Shown in pieces: positions 2,461 through 29,115 of a stretch of 29,115 bases of DNA. The position numbers and the translations under genes are program-made. The notes beneath the pieces were generated by a model. The model did not search any database. It was not told the origin of the DNA and worked only from the letters and a program-made list of their open reading frames with translations. The DNA lies in IMG/VR virus record IMGVR_UViG_3300017751_000144, positions 1-29,115 of that record. One strand, given 5' to 3'. The first letter of the stretch is position 1, and each line of letters begins with the position of its first letter. Origin of the DNA: a virus.

Positions 2461-4380
2461 ATGGCTAAGATCATTACAGAAAATTTTAGAGTAGAAACAA
2501 CTAAAGAGATGTTCTCTACTTTTACTAGTCAGAATGAGACTATTGAGGCAAACTTCTTGACTGGTTTGGATACGTATGTTGCTAATACTTCTGGCGTTTC
2601 TTTAACTGTTCAACAGAAAAGCGATATACAAGATATTGTAGAAGGACAACTATCAGCTAACCTGCCTGTTGCTTCTTATTATATTGTAGGCTCTAGTGTT
2701 GATAAGACAAATAGTATTTCAAATACACAATTCGAGAAGCGTGAGTTTCAACGTAGAGTTATCTTCGGCAACAAAGTAACAGATGAAAATATTCGTTATA
2801 TGTTTCACAAGAATACTTGGGCAATCAACACCGTATACGATGACTTCGATGATACACAAGATATCTCTTTACTGAATAACACAGTAACAATAGCAAGTTC
2901 GAGTGGAGATTATGAAGTATACAAATGTATCGAGAATGGTAAGAACATAACCTTTCCTAACGGAAGACCTTCGAAGATAGCTCCAAATAAAACTGATATC
3001 GATCCAACAACATACGAACAGATATTCGCTTCAGATGGATATGTATGGAAGTATCTTTTCACAGTACCACAGGGAGATGAACTCGTCTTCGGTACCTCTG
3101 ACAGTTTACCTCTTCCCTATCCATCGTATGGAGACCCATCTGTAATTGCAGCCGCTAAAGAAAATATTTCTCAGATTATTATTGAAGATACTAGGACAAA
3201 CTTATTTTCGGACTATAGATTCGGACCATGTGATACCAATCAAGATGCGAGTCAAGTAGAGTTCACATCTAGCGTATCTGCTTCAGGTAACACTTCAAAT
3301 GTTGTAGTGAAGGCTGCGACAGCATCAGGTAATGCTATAAAGTCTGGATGGTTACTTAAAGATGGCGCAAACTTTTATAAGAATATGTACTTGCGGGCTA
3401 AGTTCAACACAACCTATAATTACAATGTTGTAGAGAATGGTGCAGCCGTAGCAAAATCTATCAATCAAGGTACAGTATTTCTATACAACGTGATTGCATC
3501 AACTACTTCAACTAGCAGTCTAGACATGAGTATTACGATTGACGGTATTGAATCTAGCTTTGCAAACGATACTAATTTTTGGGATGCAACAGAACTTTCC
3601 ATCGTGCCAAAAATTAAAATCTCAAGAAGTACTTCTACTGGCACTCCTGCGATTGCGTATGGCAACATAGACAAGTTCGGCACATTAGACAGCATTTCAT
3701 TTTTCACTAAAGGCAGTGAATACAAATACGCTTCGGCAGAACTTATTCTACCATCTGCTTTGACTGGACTATACACTTCTACAGAGGCAGCCGATCTTAG
3801 ATGCGTTATCTCTCCCAAAGGTGGTCATGGCTCTGACATGATCAACGAGTTAGGGATGAGTAGACTGGCAATTAATACGAACTTCTCTGGAGAAGATGTA
3901 GCTATACCTAATTCCAATACTTACACTAAGGTTGGACTTATTAAGAACCCTATCTTCACTGACGGAATATTCCCCACACAAATTGATAACAGAACGTCTA
4001 TCGTGATTAATGGTGAAAACGTTACGGCTACAACAGTAGCAGGAAGATACGTGAGACAGGTTAAAGTGTTGGATAGTAATACTACAGAGGTTGTTACTGG
4101 TAAAATACATGAGAGTGTCTATGACGGAAGTAATACTACAATTTATCTTGTAGATTATTATGGAAACTTTCAAAGCACTTTTGAAACTGGTTTGATTTAC
4201 ATAAGCACAGATTTAACTACTTCCGCTACGGAGGGTGAATCAATCAGTATAAATAATACAGACGTTACTTACGGCAAGTACTCTCCTTACAGTGGAGAAG
4301 TTTTACACTTTGTAGACTTCGATCCCATTCAGAGACAAGCCGCACGTAAAGAAAAAATTAAATTTATTTTCGATTTCTAG
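2461..4380 (+). CDS. 8: Baseplate wedge protein gp8
   Basis: This is a homologue of T4 gp8, the wedge subunit that joins gp7, gp10 and gp53 in the baseplate. Remembered T4 gp8 hallmarks are visible in the right order: YEVYKCIENGK at residues 151-161 (T4 has a WLVYRCLD-type segment), DGYVWKYLFTVP at 192-203 (T4 DGYVWEYLFEIP), and a C-terminus GEVLHF...KIKFIFDF (T4 GEMIYM...INILFTF). The N-terminus, ITENFRVETTKEMF, is typical of marine relatives. At 639 residues it is nearly twice T4 gp8 (334 residues). The extra length lies mostly in the middle and at the N-terminus, so peripheral domains have been added. The ATG follows the preceding stop by 9 bases, and a GGG-type Shine-Dalgarno overlaps that stop codon, suggesting coupled translation. 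Confidence 0.9.
   Translation: MAKIITENFRVETTKEMFSTFTSQNETIEANFLTGLDTYVANTSGVSLTVQQKSDIQDIVEGQLSANLPVASYYIVGSSVDKTNSISNTQFEKREFQRRVIFGNKVTDENIRYMFHKNTWAINTVYDDFDDTQDISLLNNTVTIASSSGDYEVYKCIENGKNITFPNGRPSKIAPNKTDIDPTTYEQIFASDGYVWKYLFTVPQGDELVFGTSDSLPLPYPSYGDPSVIAAAKENISQIIIEDTRTNLFSDYRFGPCDTNQDASQVEFTSSVSASGNTSNVVVKAATASGNAIKSGWLLKDGANFYKNMYLRAKFNTTYNYNVVENGAAVAKSINQGTVFLYNVIASTTSTSSLDMSITIDGIESSFANDTNFWDATELSIVPKIKISRSTSTGTPAIAYGNIDKFGTLDSISFFTKGSEYKYASAELILPSALTGLYTSTEAADLRCVISPKGGHGSDMINELGMSRLAINTNFSGEDVAIPNSNTYTKVGLIKNPIFTDGIFPTQIDNRTSIVINGENVTATTVAGRYVRQVKVLDSNTTEVVTGKIHESVYDGSNTTIYLVDYYGNFQSTFETGLIYISTDLTTSATEGESISINNTDVTYGKYSPYSGEVLHFVDFDPIQRQAARKEKIKFIFDF
4248..4255 (+). promoter_or_regulatory. 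Possible intragenic late promoter (TATAAATA)
   Basis: An exact T4 late -10 octamer lies inside the 3' end of the gp8 gene, 141 bases before the start of the next gene. It could boost expression of the 1737-residue protein. At this AT content a few chance octamers are expected in the window, and this one is inside coding sequence, so support is weak. Confidence 0.3.
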
Positions 4381-22700: not shown

Positions 22701-23197
22701 AACTTGACCCTGCATTGAATGGCGATAGCTTCACTAAATCTAAAGCAGTAAAGTTCAATGCACAGCCTTTGTATCTAGTAGTTGGCTTAAAAGATAATGC
22801 AAAAGTAAACAACATCATAGTAGAAGAATTTACTGCCGATCAAGTACTCACGCATACTCCAGTCTTTATTAAAGATGCTCCCAACTTAACAGTAGTCGGA
22901 TCAGGATCTTCGAGTAACGTACTCTCTCCTTCTGCGTTTCAAGCAGGCGATAGACTTTCTAGTATTAGATTTGATGATCAGTGTTTGAATCCATTAAGAC
23001 CTGGAACTAAAATATATTCGCTGTTCGTAAAGGGCGGGGTGCCAGAGAAGTTTGACTTGTCTAACATCTTCGGCAGAGATAGAAAAGGATTAGCTAGAGG
23101 ACTACTAAATAATAGTGCAGTATATCTCACTGCATCAGCCGTAGATGGAACATCTGTCGGCAATGTAGAACTAACTATCACAGTGAAGGAACAGTAA
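19709..23197 (+). CDS. Giant virion structural protein with FRYQPGR module (paralogue B)
   Basis: A 1162-residue paralogue of the preceding gene. Shared blocks are SEVSSSILGVPRAE...LFADVSTY (from residue 82), FRYQPGRASGFTFGV (325-339), an FNIVRRS segment, PRTKFNGDSLLGNGKSG, YKIEFSWYGAIGAKFYAYVP (from 447) and KYGSSYYVDGGDEGTIKL. Here the FRYQPGR and WYGA blocks are only about 124 residues apart, against 748 in the neighbour. Instead, about 200 extra residues (roughly 115-315) precede FRYQPGR. A beta module copy is at 21644-21778. The C-terminal 500 residues are beta-rich and not recognised. Only 3 bases separate it from the previous stop, and its own stop shares one base with the next start (TAATG), so it belongs to a coupled series. 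Virion structural role inferred; no catalytic motif seen. Confidence 0.8.
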   Translation: MPKQIKLGLDKVPAPVTKQFTQLIDIEGNLLFDAAGNPVVTEDEAVLGSFSKSASATSIFSNNYNSDKPISVPIAEQFSGESEVSSSILGVPRAEEQLSLFADVSTYGLDEENWNYYTFSNSTYPGEWYRKQNPVFGRRFDPKFTEESSEQALSISTFPSQYNFPGSTIAERREAPTANMQAYMNFIAMGKYLYTIFIDVNPVFAKANFLDTTIKVISSGELEFDTTSSSSFSTNGLSFSNDANFHDVEYGDDLQESFDQIERWTYMYDRIVVGDASFPTILNEEKSRKFKLEYDSIRRFLSSKSQPGGSSQATKFAILESKKTFRYQPGRASGFTFGVRQETDPSSNVNTIEWGCSNDTDEYMFQLVGSRFNIVRRSVIKLPDDLLLKQGLEVSDQSSSAIEPKGVGIREAMWETVIPRTKFNGDSLLGNGKSGYILSFEDVTMYKIEFSWYGAIGAKFYAYVPSLVGDARWVLMHRLVIENGLGKPILKNPDFKFKYMIFTEDNATMQKPVSLYKYGSSYYVDGGDEGTIKLATTTVDSKDFTQRSPILGILPKQKIFNQDGEGLTNFKKAYPSTMSISSDIDARIDVEDISGSPDGVHFNFSPSLHNGVHALSTTLDFRFIGSAGSQVDILSGPTLIASNFLEGTKYEIVTPGNTNWTDIGSANASVGTKFIKNAVVATGTGTAKKVSLGIEDDNAHIIADGIYNAYVDYDYDPVDHESSSIRRRNSSQVLITDSIRKYEKYDGTVEDTINSPTFTGRLSNYHALAASTVPIYGNNFKIHFLNPSSKDNSRHFAEFAISVTSKLPIIDSTDNNKLKFTDDAGVSEPYDIYGELHQEYACEGTPINYSTKAERYEWDPGYSDMFMVDNRIPSPLGADSGYISAVKGEVRVVSYSVESVAEGTGDFAGKWKITFAGGAPSTSLFTVDSSGNIVPESTEIGVASEGIGVYYTTLPEQGDDGKSFAYVYPDPTDDGSGPGSRTITSIQTKTITLTHDWQLDPALNGDSFTKSKAVKFNAQPLYLVVGLKDNAKVNNIIVEEFTADQVLTHTPVFIKDAPNLTVVGSGSSSNVLSPSAFQAGDRLSSIRFDDQCLNPLRPGTKIYSLFVKGGVPEKFDLSNIFGRDRKGLARGLLNNSAVYLTASAVDGTSVGNVELTITVKEQ
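21644..21778 (+). repeat. Beta module GxxYxI...GTxF...GTGT, copy 4 of 4
   Basis: This encodes EGTKYEIVTPGNTNWTDIG then ASVGTKFIKNAVVATGTGTA. It fits the GxxYxI..xGxTxWxxIG...GTxFxA...GTGTA consensus shared with the fibre encoded at 12523-15678 and, more loosely, the gene at 1-2451. Confidence 0.65.
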
Positions 23198-25662
23198 TGC
23201 CATTTAGAGGTCTAAACGTACAACTAGCACTAAACGATGTCGATTCTGCTTCTACGGCTCTTCGGAACTTAGGACTCGACCAAAGAGACTTGGCACTGAT
23301 CTCTGGTTTAGCTACGGGCGTACAAGTTCAGCCCGATGAACTGCACACTCTTGCAGGTCTCGTAGTAGATCAGAAAAAGGAGTTGGCCGCTTTAGCTAGA
23401 TCGTCAACAACAGTAGGATCAATACTAACGAGTCTTACTGACATTGGACAACCTTTAGATTTTAATCTTGAAATAGATAATCAGATTAATGCCGCTGCCA
23501 TCAAATACAAATATCTAGACTACTCCAATAACACAATGAAGACTGCTGATATATCCACGTCACGTGTATCATCTTGGTCGACAATAGGCACTTCTATTTT
23601 GTATGGCGGTGAAGTTAAAGTCACTGGTGATAGTATAACTCTCGACAGTTTAGGCACAAGTACCGCTCCAATCGCCAAAGCATTTAGAGCAGAGGTTCCT
23701 ACTCATAAAATTGGATTGAAAGTCAACGGGTCTGTTGAAGAGTTTTATGCGATGAAAGGAATTCCTTTAAAGTTTGACGCATTCTTTAGAAATGCAAATT
23801 TCAGACATGCCGTGACTTCTATAAGTGATAGTGCCGGCATTGTTCCTCCTGTTTGGAGAGTCACAAATAAGGCTGGAGGACAATCATATAATACTGGAGA
23901 TGCAACTGGATCTATTGGAGCTGGTAGTGTTGGATCTCCTGCACAATATTCATTCAGAGATAGTTCTAGTAAGGCTCGCACAGTTGAGTTCTTCTATAAC
24001 CCAGCGAACATTAACGAACTGGGCATGGCTAGCATAAACTTAACTACTTGGACGAACGTAGGTCTAGATAACTTACGTAAACTCGATATATCTCAAAATG
24101 ACTTTTACGAACTACCTAAGTTTGGAGACTCAAGTAGAAACGGAGATAGTCTTGCGGTTACGCTAGAGCAGATCGTGCTTACAGGTAATAACCTTTCAAG
24201 GGCAAAAGACTCTGCTGGCGTAAGTATTCCTGCCAATACGCAATTGAACACGCTTCCTCTCACGCTGACCCATTTGACGATGAACGGAGTATTCAGTGAT
24301 TCTACCACCATTGATTTAACTGACTACACACAATTAACTAATTTGAATATGAGTACATACTACGCTAGAAATGCTCAAAGACGTATGACTGGAGGAACAG
24401 TTACTCCAAAAACGTATCATAACGCAACTCTAGGTATTGTCAATTATTCTATATATCATCAACCTTATTCTCAACTTGCTAATGGAGTTTGCTCAAGCCC
24501 TAGATTGAACTATCTATACTTTCCTTGGTGTGGCGTGAATGCAAAAGAGGGCGGTGGTAATATAACCATAGCAAGTCCAGTCATAACATCATTTATTTCT
24601 TACGGTAATAGTCACAACGTAGTTAATATGTCGGGTAAAAATAACCTTGGCAATTATATTCAAGCATATTCTAGTCCAGGCTCAGATAAAAGTTTGCAAA
24701 ATAAATTTACTGGATGTTCAGCACTCACTCAAATATACTGCTATGCATCTGGAGGAATCACAGGTGATATAGGAACAGTTGTAAAAGATCAAGGTCTTAC
24801 ATCACTAAGCACTCTAGATGTTAGATACACTGGAGTTACTGGAGAACTAAGAGATGATAGCTTCAGTCAAGCAAGTGCGCTAGTCCATTTTAGAGTTTCT
24901 GGAGGAAACGTAGGCAGTGGAGTTGCGGCTGCCGATAGAGACTTTTGGGGAACTACAGATTCTATCAACAACAACTCATCTAACGGAGACGTATTCAAGG
25001 ACTGTGGTAACTTAAATTGGATATACTGCTATCAAGCTGGAAACGTAGGTGGACCATTACCAGACTTTTCTCGTAATCCAAATTTACGAGGAATATACAT
25101 ATATAATACTGCTATTAATGGCACTTTACCTAATCTAGTAAATAATCAAAGGCTTTACTATCTGAGATTGAATTCATCTCAACTGAGTGGCACTATCCCT
25201 ACTTGGTCAACAAATGCACTAAGTTACGTATTCATTAATAACAATAACTTAAGTGGCACTATACCAGCACTACAGACTCCTTATCTATACTATTTGTATG
25301 CTCAGTCTAATAACTTTTCTGGTAATTTGCCAACGTTTGCTGGTGCTGTAAGACTTCAGAGACTATATCTTAATAGTAATTCGATAACTGGATATACTTC
25401 AGAGGCATTGAAATATAACACAAGTCTAAGCATTATAGATTTAAGCAACAACAGTCTTCCTTCATCAGCAGGTATTCCCTTGATCGATGACCTGTTTGAT
25501 AACTACGGATTGAATCCTAGAAGTGGAGTTAGTGTAAACTTACTAGGTAACAATGGATTAAATAGATCAGATATAGTATCTCAGAATGAAGGCGAACAGA
25601 GTCCAGCTTCAAAGCTCGCTTTTCTGGAACAGTACTGGACAATTCTGCTAGATGCAACTTAA
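23197..25662 (+). CDS. Leucine-rich-repeat virion protein, putative receptor-binding fibre
   Basis: An 821-residue protein. Residues 1-60 are helical and carry ALRNLGL (21-27), a motif shared in position with the two following genes. Residues ~60-285 are beta-rich. From about residue 290 (NLRKLDISQND) to 760 there are leucine-rich repeats, most regular at the end. Repeat leucines fall at 606, 630, 653, 675, 697, 720 and 744, a period of 22-24 residues. Units read LYYLRLNSSQLSGTIP, LSYVFINNNNLSGTIP, LYYLYAQSNNFSGNLP, matching the LxxLxLxxNxLSGxIP class best known from plant receptors. A capping helix, ASKLAFLEQYWTILLD, ends the protein. There is no signal peptide, anchor or enzyme domain, and the gene sits among fibre genes, so it is probably a virion adhesin. 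The Shine-Dalgarno is GAAGGAA; the start overlaps the upstream stop by one base. Confidence 0.85.
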   Translation: MPFRGLNVQLALNDVDSASTALRNLGLDQRDLALISGLATGVQVQPDELHTLAGLVVDQKKELAALARSSTTVGSILTSLTDIGQPLDFNLEIDNQINAAAIKYKYLDYSNNTMKTADISTSRVSSWSTIGTSILYGGEVKVTGDSITLDSLGTSTAPIAKAFRAEVPTHKIGLKVNGSVEEFYAMKGIPLKFDAFFRNANFRHAVTSISDSAGIVPPVWRVTNKAGGQSYNTGDATGSIGAGSVGSPAQYSFRDSSSKARTVEFFYNPANINELGMASINLTTWTNVGLDNLRKLDISQNDFYELPKFGDSSRNGDSLAVTLEQIVLTGNNLSRAKDSAGVSIPANTQLNTLPLTLTHLTMNGVFSDSTTIDLTDYTQLTNLNMSTYYARNAQRRMTGGTVTPKTYHNATLGIVNYSIYHQPYSQLANGVCSSPRLNYLYFPWCGVNAKEGGGNITIASPVITSFISYGNSHNVVNMSGKNNLGNYIQAYSSPGSDKSLQNKFTGCSALTQIYCYASGGITGDIGTVVKDQGLTSLSTLDVRYTGVTGELRDDSFSQASALVHFRVSGGNVGSGVAAADRDFWGTTDSINNNSSNGDVFKDCGNLNWIYCYQAGNVGGPLPDFSRNPNLRGIYIYNTAINGTLPNLVNNQRLYYLRLNSSQLSGTIPTWSTNALSYVFINNNNLSGTIPALQTPYLYYLYAQSNNFSGNLPTFAGAVRLQRLYLNSNSITGYTSEALKYNTSLSIIDLSNNSLPSSAGIPLIDDLFDNYGLNPRSGVSVNLLGNNGLNRSDIVSQNEGEQSPASKLAFLEQYWTILLDAT
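25000..25440 (+). repeat. Regular leucine-rich-repeat tract
   Basis: Seven consecutive repeat units of 22-24 codons encode the C-terminal part of the LRR array. Two neighbouring units share near-identical coding for LSGTIP (starting at about 25186 and 25246), spaced 60-66 bases. This spacing could allow homologous unit gain or loss while keeping frame. Confidence 0.75.
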
Positions 25663-25671
25663 GGAAAAGAT

Positions 25672-26622
25672 ATGGCTCAAGGATTTGTAAGAGACTTAAA
25701 TTTAATAGAAAGTAGCACGGGTGCGCTTGATACTGCCTCTTTAAATAACTTAGGCGGTGCAGGCATTAAGAACGACCTAATGCTCTTTGACGGAAACTTT
25801 AAATTCTTATCTAAACTGGTACCCGCTGACTATAGCGTTTCAGGTGATACTGTTACAGTCTCAGGAGAAGGCAAAGTAGCGTTCTCTGACGGAACTAAGA
25901 TATCTATGGACGGTGCTGGGTTTTCTGGAGAGAGTGTATTTGAATACGAAGTTTTTGACTCGAATGGTATCGATAAGTTTCGAGTAAAGGATGGATTTGG
26001 ATCAGTGACTCCAGCGGGCACACTTAGACGGAACGACGGCGTTTCTTTTCAGAACCTATCGAATCTAAGCAGTAAACGACTTGAAGCTAGTTCATCATCA
26101 TCTACAGGAGTGGGAGCGGATGACGGTGCTTCTGATCTTTTCAATGCGTTTAATGCGTCTGAACAAGTAGACTACATTAGCGGTCAACTAGGAATATATT
26201 ACTATAAAAGAGGAAGAATTCCCTTAACATTTGAGGATTCTATCTTTGATCAAAAAGTTACTTTCAGAGGTCAAGTGATGATCGTTGATAGTGATGCTAC
26301 AGTAAGTAGTGTTCCAGATTCTAACTCACCAGGACTATTCATCATAGATGCTAATGATCCAACAGCTACAGCAGTTAGAGCATTTAGTGATGCGAGTAAT
26401 CCTTGGGATAATTCAGTAGCAGGTAAACTAGTTACAACTCAAGCAGTATCTCAGCCAAACGTTTTAACTTTTGAGCCCACATCTTCAAATGTTCCAAACT
26501 TTATTTCTAGTGGAAGTCCATTACTCATAGATTCCGAGAACAACACACTCGCTAGTTACACACATAAGCTTCCAGTAGTCGTTAACGGCACAACATTCTT
26601 TTTACTATTAAAGAATAGTTAA
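25672..26622 (+). CDS. Virion structural protein, fibre-associated (316 residues)
   Basis: No named family is recognised. The N-terminus, MAQGFVRDLNLIE, followed by SLNNLGGAGIKNDLMLF (residues 23-39) resembles the start of other marine phage structural proteins, and its SLNNLG matches ALRNLG and ALSNLL in the flanking genes. The middle (FNASEQVDYISGQLGIYYYKRGRIPLTF) and the C-terminal hairpin LPVVVNGTTFFLLLKNS are beta-rich. Similar GTTY/F-type endings occur in the convergent gene. A strong Shine-Dalgarno, AAGGAAAAG, ends four bases before the ATG and lies in the 9-base gap after the LRR gene. The two may therefore act together, for example as adaptor and adhesin (inference). The stop overlaps the convergent gene's stop. 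Confidence 0.75.
   Translation: MAQGFVRDLNLIESSTGALDTASLNNLGGAGIKNDLMLFDGNFKFLSKLVPADYSVSGDTVTVSGEGKVAFSDGTKISMDGAGFSGESVFEYEVFDSNGIDKFRVKDGFGSVTPAGTLRRNDGVSFQNLSNLSSKRLEASSSSSTGVGADDGASDLFNAFNASEQVDYISGQLGIYYYKRGRIPLTFEDSIFDQKVTFRGQVMIVDSDATVSSVPDSNSPGLFIIDANDPTATAVRAFSDASNPWDNSVAGKLVTTQAVSQPNVLTFEPTSSNVPNFISSGSPLLIDSENNTLASYTHKLPVVVNGTTFFLLLKNS
26595..26618. terminator. AT-rich hairpins at convergent gene ends, possible weak bidirectional terminator
   Basis: ATTCTTT (26595-26601) can pair with AAAGAAT (26610-26616). Alternatively CTATT (26605-26609) pairs with AATAG (26614-26618) around a four-base loop. Both lie just before the shared stop region. The stems contain only one G:C pair each and no clear U-run follows, so efficient termination is doubtful. 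Confidence 0.25.
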
Positions 26623-29033
26623 GAATCACCTGTTTTAAAGGCTAATGCCTTATAGGTTGTACCGCCGTGAGTTATCTTAAGATATTTACCCGAATTATTC
26701 GGAAGAGTGCCTATTGCATTTACATTTGCACTAGGCGTCACTACTTGAAGCTTACCAAATACTAGACCTTCTACTTCTAAATTACTATTGGCAGACGGTG
26801 TCGCTAGACCTAATTCAGTACCAGCAAACGGCGGAGCAGTATTCAGCGGGATCACGCAGAACTCTTTATTCGAAGTCAATGGATCATTTGTCGATTTTAC
26901 AAAAACTACAGTACGTGCCGCTGGTAGTTCTGCTAAAAGATTACCACTCGATGGACCAGTTAAAGTTATTGTATTAGTACTTGAGTCTATGCTAGAAACT
27001 GTAGTTGAATTAGTGCCAGAAATGATACCGCTATATTGAACGAAATCGCCTGTTGATATTCCAGTTACCGTAGTTAACGTTACTCGATTCTGTCCACTGG
27101 CATTACTTCCTGATACAGGGACTGCTACTTCTCTTCCGTAAACTCCATCGCATTGTAAGTATGAAGACTTATCATCTAGTCCTCTAGATGCATACACAGC
27201 GACTATTCTATATTGACTATTGTTTATAGTGCCTCCATTCCCTAAGTAATCGGATATAGTGATTGCTCTAGGTGAGGCACCGCTTGCATCGAAAACTCTT
27301 TTTGGTTGAAGTCCAGTTCCACCAGTAGACGATATAGACATCATGATTTGATCTGGAAATACAACACTGCTTGGATCGGGATTCAAAGATACTGGACTCA
27401 TTCGATACAAGTTCTGCACCGTATTGCTAGAATATCCACCTCTGAATATACCAACTAATCCTATGTTCTTAATGAATATTACAGCCTGAGTATCTCCTAT
27501 AGAGAATGTCGCATCAGCATTAAGAGTGTCTTTAACATATGCGTAAGTGTTTCCATCTTCGTCTTCACCGCTAATAGATTCTATCTGAAATGCATACATG
27601 CTGTTGTTAGCCTTCTTAAAGACCATCCAATCACCTGAAACAACTCCTGAAAAATTAGGTGCTGATATTTTACCGAAGTTATCACGTACGGTAATAGTCG
27701 TTGGAGTAACACTGGTGTTGGATCCAGTTATGCCCACAATCTTATCGCTTAATTGTCCTGGAGGAACTATGGGCAATGATATAGTATCTAATACGGATAG
27801 CTTTGCAGTCGAGGCTTGGTTAAGCGGACTGGCTTTATTATCTTCGAAGTACTTGTACGTATATGGACCAAAAACTTGGTTCCGATCGAATGTTTTATAG
27901 TAATCTGAGAAAGGCGCTCTTTCACTATTTTCAGTTAGTTCTCTAAAGGTTTTTTCTCTGTATGCAGTGCCGTTACCTGGATCAGGATACCAATGAGTAT
28001 ATCTAACTCTTACTCTACTACCTCTTTTTTGAGATGTAAATAATATAGGAGACTGTACTTCATCAGCTCCTAACTCGAAACTGAGTGAAATATTTCCGTT
28101 TTGAATAGAGGTACTTGACGCTACGGTGAAAGTTTTATCTATTGGATCTACTGTTATGATTTCGTAAGTGGTACTGCCAACTGTAAATTTCATGGCAACG
28201 CAAGGATAGTTAAGATTCGTAGATGAGGCGCTATAGTCTGCGGTAACTACATCATTACTAGGAGCGGAAAAGGTTACAGAACTTAGAGTCGCACTAGTCG
28301 CATAAACAGATTTAATTTGTGTCCAGTTATTTTCCGTACCATCATCTACCGTGTCCTCTTCTATGATAAATAAACCAGTAGAGCCCCAATCTTGATCATA
28401 GTTACTTGAAAGGTATCCTGTCCATTGTACAAGACCATACGTATCTTGCATCTGCGGATGAAGCTTTGCTGTAAACGAGAACACACCATTATTCCAGAAG
28501 TCTAATGGTCCAATAATAGGAGTGAATGATCCTGACGTGATATCAGTGGTAAACAGTTGAGAAGACGATAGTCCTCCCAATGTAGTAGCAGTACCAGAGT
28601 TACCTGTTATTGCTCCTGTGACGCTTGATTTTATTCGGTCACTGCCGATAAAGTTACATACAAGTCCATCACCACCATTAATCCACGGAGGGTTGCCTAA
28701 AACAGATTTAAAATTGCTTATATTATCTTGAAGTGTGATTACGGGTTCAACCACTTGAATAGAGCCAGCTAAGTTTGTAAACTCTACTAGACTGCCAAGA
28801 AGATCAGCAAGATCGGTAGATTGACCGTCTTCATTCGTAAAGTCTGCAAGACCAGTATTTCTTAAACCTGACGTGGCACTGATATCTGCAACAGTAAAGC
28901 CGGATTTGATACCGTTCTCATCTAATGCAGAAGAGATGTCATCCAGTAAGTTAGAAAGAGCTTGTTGAGGATTAGTCAAGTCTACTAAATTTTTATCGGC
29001 TCTAAGTCCGAATTTGATGTACTTTGAGGTCAT
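26619..29033 (-). CDS. Fibre-like virion structural protein on the minus strand (804 residues)
   Basis: This is the only minus-strand gene in the window. The N-terminus, KYIKFGLRADKNLVDL followed by ALSNLLDDI (residues 25-33), resembles starts I associate with structural proteins of marine T4-like phages and shares the ALxNL motif with the two upstream fibre genes. GNSGTATTLGGLSSSQL (from residue 144) is a fibre-shaft-type unit. An aromatic-rich central domain (SRVRVRYTHWYPDPGNG, REKTFREL, FGPYTYKYF) and a beta-rich C-terminal half follow, ending in ITHGGTTYKALAFKTGDS. No enzyme motif or signal peptide is seen. A TATAAATA late promoter faces it at 29068-29075, about 35 bases upstream of the ATG, with a weak GGAT Shine-Dalgarno. 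Its stop overlaps that of the convergent gene by 4 bases (TTAA). Probably a further fibre or decoration protein. Confidence 0.8.
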   Translation of the reverse strand: MTSKYIKFGLRADKNLVDLTNPQQALSNLLDDISSALDENGIKSGFTVADISATSGLRNTGLADFTNEDGQSTDLADLLGSLVEFTNLAGSIQVVEPVITLQDNISNFKSVLGNPPWINGGDGLVCNFIGSDRIKSSVTGAITGNSGTATTLGGLSSSQLFTTDITSGSFTPIIGPLDFWNNGVFSFTAKLHPQMQDTYGLVQWTGYLSSNYDQDWGSTGLFIIEEDTVDDGTENNWTQIKSVYATSATLSSVTFSAPSNDVVTADYSASSTNLNYPCVAMKFTVGSTTYEIITVDPIDKTFTVASSTSIQNGNISLSFELGADEVQSPILFTSQKRGSRVRVRYTHWYPDPGNGTAYREKTFRELTENSERAPFSDYYKTFDRNQVFGPYTYKYFEDNKASPLNQASTAKLSVLDTISLPIVPPGQLSDKIVGITGSNTSVTPTTITVRDNFGKISAPNFSGVVSGDWMVFKKANNSMYAFQIESISGEDEDGNTYAYVKDTLNADATFSIGDTQAVIFIKNIGLVGIFRGGYSSNTVQNLYRMSPVSLNPDPSSVVFPDQIMMSISSTGGTGLQPKRVFDASGASPRAITISDYLGNGGTINNSQYRIVAVYASRGLDDKSSYLQCDGVYGREVAVPVSGSNASGQNRVTLTTVTGISTGDFVQYSGIISGTNSTTVSSIDSSTNTITLTGPSSGNLLAELPAARTVVFVKSTNDPLTSNKEFCVIPLNTAPPFAGTELGLATPSANSNLEVEGLVFGKLQVVTPSANVNAIGTLPNNSGKYLKITHGGTTYKALAFKTGDS

Positions 29034-29067
29034 TTTAAATCCAATTGGTTAAAGGTTCTGTTCTTAT

Positions 29068-29079
29068 TATTTATAAATA
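29068..29079. promoter_or_regulatory. Palindromic bidirectional late promoter, TATTTATAAATA
   Basis: The 12-base sequence is its own reverse complement and contains the late octamer TATAAATA on the plus strand (29072-29079) and on the minus strand (29075 to 29068), overlapping by four bases. It lies in the 72-base divergent gap between the minus-strand gene (ATG at 29033) and the plus-strand gene (ATG at 29106). Leaders of about 20-30 bases result on each side, normal for T4 late transcripts. Polymerase cannot occupy both orientations at once, so the two genes probably share one promoter in alternation. Confidence 0.7.
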
Positions 29080-29105
29080 CATGTAGCATAGATTAGGGAA
29101 AAAAC

Positions 29106-29115
29106 ATGGCAGTTA
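29106..29115 (+). CDS. Start of next plus-strand gene (partial)
   Basis: An ATG reading MAV runs off the window end. It is supported by a late promoter octamer 26 bases upstream and a Shine-Dalgarno-like AGGGAA at 29095-29100. Nothing can be said about its function. Confidence 0.55.

Follow-up and report, generated by a model that had tools for sequence, protein, structure and literature searches.

The palindrome and its genes

The locus described here raises the question of how the two genes on either side of the perfect 12-bp palindrome TATTTATAAATA are transcribed. The window, i.e. the whole stretch of 29,115 nucleotides that was analysed, is a 29-kb virus fragment with a single copy of this palindrome (Table 1). 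T4-type baseplate wedge and tail genes are present in it, one wedge protein (2461-4380) has its matches among those of cyanophages and other T4-like phages, each at less than 60% identity, and its source is a T4-like marine virus of bacteria. The gap that holds the palindrome is the only divergent one in the window, because the only long ORF of the minus strand is that of the minus gene and the next plus-strand gene is real. The late-promoter octamer TATAAATA occurs on both strands, and the two octamers overlap by four bases, the central TATA of the palindrome. The octamers are separated from the ATG codons by 26 bp (plus gene) and 34 bp (minus gene). An earlier sequence-only reading had noted the perfect palindrome, the exact octamers on both strands, their four-base overlap and the position in the only divergent gap, and each of these points was found to be exact on re-reading. 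These features, together with the observations described below, suggest that the palindrome is very probably a symmetric two-way T4-type late promoter, in which two late promoters are fused back to back.

Table 1. Features of the divergent locus, in window coordinates
Feature	Position	Strand	Remark
Minus gene, 804 aa, presumed tail or virion protein	26619..29033	-	the window's only long minus-strand ORF
Divergent gap, 72 bp	29034..29105		without a sigma-70-like promoter match
Predicted transcription start (A) of the minus gene, 29-nt leader	29062	-	from the T4 late box position (passages of PMC1524935)
Palindrome TATTTATAAATA	29068..29079		putative back-to-back pair of late-promoter boxes; counterpart with identical sequence and layout at T4 116450-116461
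Late-promoter octamer TATAAATA for the minus gene	29068..29075	-	
Late-promoter octamer TATAAATA for the plus gene	29072..29079	+	expected at -13 to -6
Predicted transcription start (A) of the plus gene, 21-nt leader	29085	+	from the T4 late box position (passages of PMC1524935)
Plus gene, first 10 bases, ATG at 29106	29106..29115	+	cut by the window end; 110 aa in relatives

When completed from its relatives, the plus gene encodes a protein of 110 aa that falls into the PHROG family 'L-shaped tail fiber protein assembly'. The N-terminus of the minus-gene protein is conserved in 8/8 aligned relatives, with invariant columns that include K4, Y5, G9, R11, D13 and N15. The sequence-only reading had called both genes late virion genes, which is likely from their position among the tail genes; for the minus gene, no PHROG or Pfam family was matched to back this part of the claim. 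As neither the gap region nor the minus gene had a match in the phage collection, at the DNA or the protein level, IMG/VR contigs carried the comparison across relatives.

At its other end, the minus gene converges with a plus-strand gene (25672-26622) in a 4-base overlap (26619-26622). No terminator-like site was found there, and the late transcripts of each gene may therefore continue as antisense RNA into the other. Among the presumed tail genes, 23197-25662 encodes a protein of 821 aa that contains leucine-rich repeats (Pfam LRR_4) at residues 719-754, close to the C-terminus.

Occurrence by chance

The 12-mer was found in 0/100 dinucleotide shuffles of the whole window, in 13/1000 such shuffles made with a separate script and in 7/20000 shuffles of the 72-bp gap alone. 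The octamer TATAAATA by itself is not rarer than chance, with four copies in the window against 3.13 expected, and the case therefore rests on its pairing, its placement and its conservation.

Conservation and gene orientation

The strongest evidence comes from the comparison across relatives. A search with the plus-gene protein gave 80 loci (the best 80 of 162), of which 50 remained after de-duplication at 90% identity; two of these, L011 and L069 (at a contig end), were excluded from the counts that follow. One locus, L022, first labelled as plus where the contig ends nearby, was moved to the divergent class because a minus-strand frame begins with MARKYLKFG and the minus-gene search finds the same contig (L625). 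For the minus gene of L008-L010, the conserved start (followed by xxKY) was used and not the automatic call at -16, which is an in-frame upstream ATG.

Both octamers are present in 12/12 loci with a divergent neighbour. Ten of these have the 12-mer and two (L012 and L015) have the 14-mer TATTTATATAAATA, in which the spacing is altered, yet both octamers are left intact. The opposite-strand octamer occurs in 0/36 tandem loci, where the own-strand octamer is found alone in 14 and neither octamer in 22. The difference between 12/12 and 0/36 is highly significant (Fisher p 1.4e-11), with the reservation that p values overstate independence because the loci are related by descent. The sequence-only reading had proposed to ask whether the palindrome is conserved in relatives that keep the divergent arrangement, and these counts answer that it is.

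Of the 80 records, 33 were searched whole, and 15 that belong to the window's lineage contain exactly one copy of the 12-mer, located at this gap. HTVC008M and P-HM2, in which the plus-gene homologue is in tandem, contain no copy. Locus L011 (G007, 23228-23455) keeps the palindrome though its upstream gene is on the plus strand and ends about 190 bp before the palindrome; this palindrome is possibly what a recent gene swap left behind.

For the reverse comparison, the search was made with an alignment of eight minus-gene proteins, of which four share just 27-32% identity with that of the window. It gave 54 loci, of which 53 were counted (L594 was dropped) and 31 remained after de-duplication. 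Viewed from this side, the palindrome again follows the gene order: 19/22 divergent gaps contain the 12-mer (18) or the 14-mer (one), and the other three (L626-L628), which are remote partial matches, contain neither octamer. In the five tandem loci the opposite octamer is found in 0/5 and the own octamer in two; for four loci no neighbour could be assigned, and two of these carry the 12-mer and two do not. The plus-gene and minus-gene searches are not independent, as they share contigs. A less biased test than the locus counts is to compare all 12-mers of the window's gap: the palindrome is present in 18/22 divergent gaps, and any 12-mer that does not overlap it in at most 2/22.

The three closest relatives alone prove little, because the whole gap is conserved in them, in one letter for letter. 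In this last case (L003, 3929-4000, a copy of window positions 29034-29105) the minus-gene proteins are about 60% identical. The gap and the N-terminus of the minus gene may form a swap boundary for tail genes.

The counterpart in phage T4

The T4 genome contains exactly one copy of the 12-mer, at 116450-116461, within the 50-bp gap between gene 26 (minus strand) and gene 51 (plus strand), which are annotated as genes for the baseplate hub and for baseplate hub assembly. Scarlato et al. (Virology, 1989) reportedly described overlapping promoters from which the T4 base plate cluster is transcribed divergently. In GenBank M77695, proteins 26 and 51 are each given a TATA box, and these opposed boxes overlap at the T4 palindrome. 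Phages JS09, S16, CBH8, Cronus and Lion_ER11 each carry exactly one copy of the 12-mer, likewise at the 26/51 gap. Among the nine records sampled, KNP1 included, seven have the 12-mer in this gap, the rest of which differs between genera; the two without it are PSTRCR_127, with a reversed fusion (TATAAATATTTATA), and MIZ3, with the plus-strand octamer only. Providencia phage PSTRCR_127 (MW358927.1, 118931 and 122648) has reversed or face-to-face octamer pairs both between inh and the helicase gene (+14) and in the 26/51-like gap (+6).

The site of the window fits the T4 26/51 kind, in which opposed late boxes overlap in the gap between divergent late genes. The same 12-mer occurs in both, with one copy per genome, and in each it lies in a short gap between divergent late genes of virion assembly. 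Unlike the T4 site, the one described here lies in a different phage lineage, between a non-homologous pair of genes (those of T4 being baseplate hub genes) and in a gap of 72 bp rather than 50 bp. The two boxes, their spacing, their conservation tied to the divergent order and their counterpart in T4 can all be read directly from the DNA.

Recurrence at other gene pairs

In two records of the set, G023 and G032, the homologue of the plus gene is in tandem, yet the 12-mer is found in other divergent gaps, that of G032 between a different pair. The 12-mer of G023 adjoins a gene that we take, as judged by eye, to be T4 gene 4. Relatives G002, G004, G005, G007 and G009 have a second divergent gap next to a gene-4-like gene (e.g. 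L216, 8430-8540), where the octamers are placed face to face with an offset of 24-29 bp, each inside the leader of the other. The octamers in the T4 4|53 gap are likewise face to face, offset by +15. In total, 27 sequences contain 33 opposite-strand octamer pairs within 80 bp, many of them homologous: the overlap is 4 in 17 and 2 in three, a face-to-face placement (+6 to +29) is seen in 12, and a single pair is back to back but separated. For this sole separated pair, the 120 bp downstream contain no gene start in either direction.

IMG/VR was scanned with the frame CCAT..palindrome..ATG for three palindromes, each among the matches listed (at least 120 stretches). After de-duplication, TATTTATAAATA lies in a called divergent gap at 38/95 sites among the matches listed, compared to 1/104 for TATAAATTTATA (p 1.3e-13) and 7/110 for TTATTATAATAA (p 5.5e-9), two dinucleotide-matched controls counted in the same way among the matches listed. 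Twenty flanking proteins from 11 of these divergent IMG/VR loci were tested, and nine of them, spread over seven loci, fall into PHROGs of named function; these functions include baseplate wedge, tail collar fibre, head-tail adaptor and head closure. A T4-type portal is encoded in 9/38 records with the palindrome in a divergent gap, among the matches listed. The enrichment of this portal in contigs of at least 40 kb with the palindrome in a divergent gap is not significant (8/15 vs 14/50 for controls, p 0.12), and not all of the 38 sites are therefore claimed to be T4-like.

The proposed process of two-way initiation

As described in passages of two papers, the T4 late promoter is an 8-bp box at -13 to -6 (PMC1524935), which is read by gp55 without a -35 site and is followed by AT-rich DNA downstream, the gp45 clamp activating transcription via gp33 (PMC2988020). 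By combining this with the geometry of the gap, it is possible to describe initiation at the palindrome in some detail. Each strand would offer a perfect TATAAATA as its -10 box, the central TATA being common to both. Host RNA polymerase carrying the phage late sigma factor gp55, and helped by gp33 and the gp45 sliding clamp, would bind in either of the two orientations. Initiation would then occur about 6 bp beyond the box, either at 29085, leading into the tail-fibre-assembly gene, or at 29062, leading into the 804-aa gene. As the two complexes would share bases and the predicted starts are only 23 bp apart, one bound complex would exclude the other at any moment. Both genes would therefore come on together, late in infection, from one site in the gap. 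The use of both starts, their exact bases and the mutual exclusion are what we infer.

The region 25600-29115 contains six sigma-70-like matches, none of them inside the gap, and a scan for terminator-like sites likewise found none inside it. The next 8 bp downstream of the palindrome in 12 related loci have a mean AT fraction of 0.78 on the minus side vs 0.65 on the plus side (p 0.016); in L005, which has the same 8 bp as the window, the fractions are 0.75 and 0.50. The more AT-rich DNA downstream on the minus side suggests that the minus direction may be the stronger one. Gp55 is encoded by G016, a palindrome-bearing relative, this being the only one of the 13 relatives' records searched, all fragments, in which it was found.

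The sequence-only reading had proposed two overlapping, opposed late promoters that serve either gene but not both at once, and this part has gained from the conservation, the T4 TATA boxes and the geometry. The 'built-in competition' that it added keeps the standing of a prediction. Late phage promoters may be active enough to compete, and the exclusion might balance or regulate the two genes.

Alternative explanations

The anatomy of fused promoters could be exactly as proposed and still have no regulatory effect, the fusion being merely a compact and easily evolved layout. We regard this explanation, which differs from a regulatory one only on the consequence, as evenly poised between right and wrong. 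A second promoter arises by few changes, because any existing octamer already contains TATA, half of a new one. Octamer pairs at the divergent genes of T4-like phages vary from an overlap by 4 or 2 to the face-to-face placements, and one gene pair can change its geometry between phages. In all five E. coli bidirectional promoters tested, basal activity was too low for polymerases to compete, competition being seen only on activation (passages of PMC12825309). Against a layout without consequence, just one of the 33 pairs is back to back and separated, without gene starts downstream, though a looser spacing would cost few bases; this argument is weak because many of the 33 pairs are homologous.

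It is very improbable that only one octamer works and that the rest of the palindrome is an extension owed to chance or hitch-hiking in a gap rich in AT. Such an extension would agree with the ordinary frequency of the octamer in the window and with the retention of the palindrome in L011 without a divergent neighbour, but the second half tracks gene orientation in 12/12 divergent against 0/36 tandem loci, the 14-mer variants preserve both octamers, and the gap has diverged around the palindrome. Slightly less probable still is an operator, where a DNA-binding protein that acts as a dimer, such as one similar to DsbA, would bind and regulate both genes. The dyad symmetry is perfect, as an operator would have it, and the T4 DsbA sites are AT-rich and overlap two late promoters (passages of PMC2988020); however, the two octamers fully account for the symmetry, and tandem homologues keep a single octamer at promoter distance, which is what a promoter, and not a dyad operator, predicts. 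Furthermore, DsbA was without effect in the T4 in vitro system, according to passages of PMC2988020, and no dsbA homologue was found in cyanomyoviruses, according to passages of PMC2984593.

A bolder version of the two-way late promoter is that direction is set by the sliding clamp and not by the box; clamp orientation would then turn a palindromic late promoter into a two-way switch. When the nick at which gp45 is loaded is placed in the other strand, late activation in T4 reverses its polarity (passages of PMC2988020). Since the -10 element is fully symmetric, direction would be the clamp's choice. We consider this rather unlikely; if true, the ratio of the two virion proteins would depend, through the switch, on the geometry of replication, i.e. 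on which strand is replicated or repaired.

Relation to other promoters and significance

The proposed late promoter resembles the sigma-70 bidirectional promoters of E. coli and other bacteria described by Warman, Grainger and colleagues (passages of PMC12825309 and PMC10268837), where a symmetric -10 element is used in two orientations. In both, the opposite-strand starts are close together and one binding event blocks the other, which here is predicted. Unlike the site described here, sigma-70 reads a different, shorter element and the starts are usually 18 bp apart, according to the same passages, spacings of 7-25 bp having been considered (PMC10268837); here it is the late-sigma octamer that is doubled exactly, with the wider spacing predicted above. 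The palindrome would work like a sigma-70 bidirectional promoter but is not a member of that class, as there is no TATAAT-type promoter in the gap. The late promoters of cyanophage S-PM2 (NATAAATA) share the same octamer upstream of late structural genes but are described as one-way, without a fused pair in the passages concerned (PMC2984593).

Fused, opposed late promoters (T4 26/51) and the sigma-70 bidirectional principle are already known. The gene pair, the depth of the conservation and the recurrence at unrelated pairs are new; a literature search in which subscription journals were thinly covered found no fused late promoter recurring at unrelated divergent pairs. When late promoters are scanned for on one strand only, half of the sites of this kind are overlooked.

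T4 is not alone in having fused two-way late promoters, as the same 12-mer is found at unrelated divergent late pairs and closely tracks gene orientation. The divergent and tandem homologues represent a natural experiment on the orientation of polymerase at a symmetric promoter, and with gp55, gp33 and gp45 long studied in vitro, the system is suited to the question of how that orientation is chosen.
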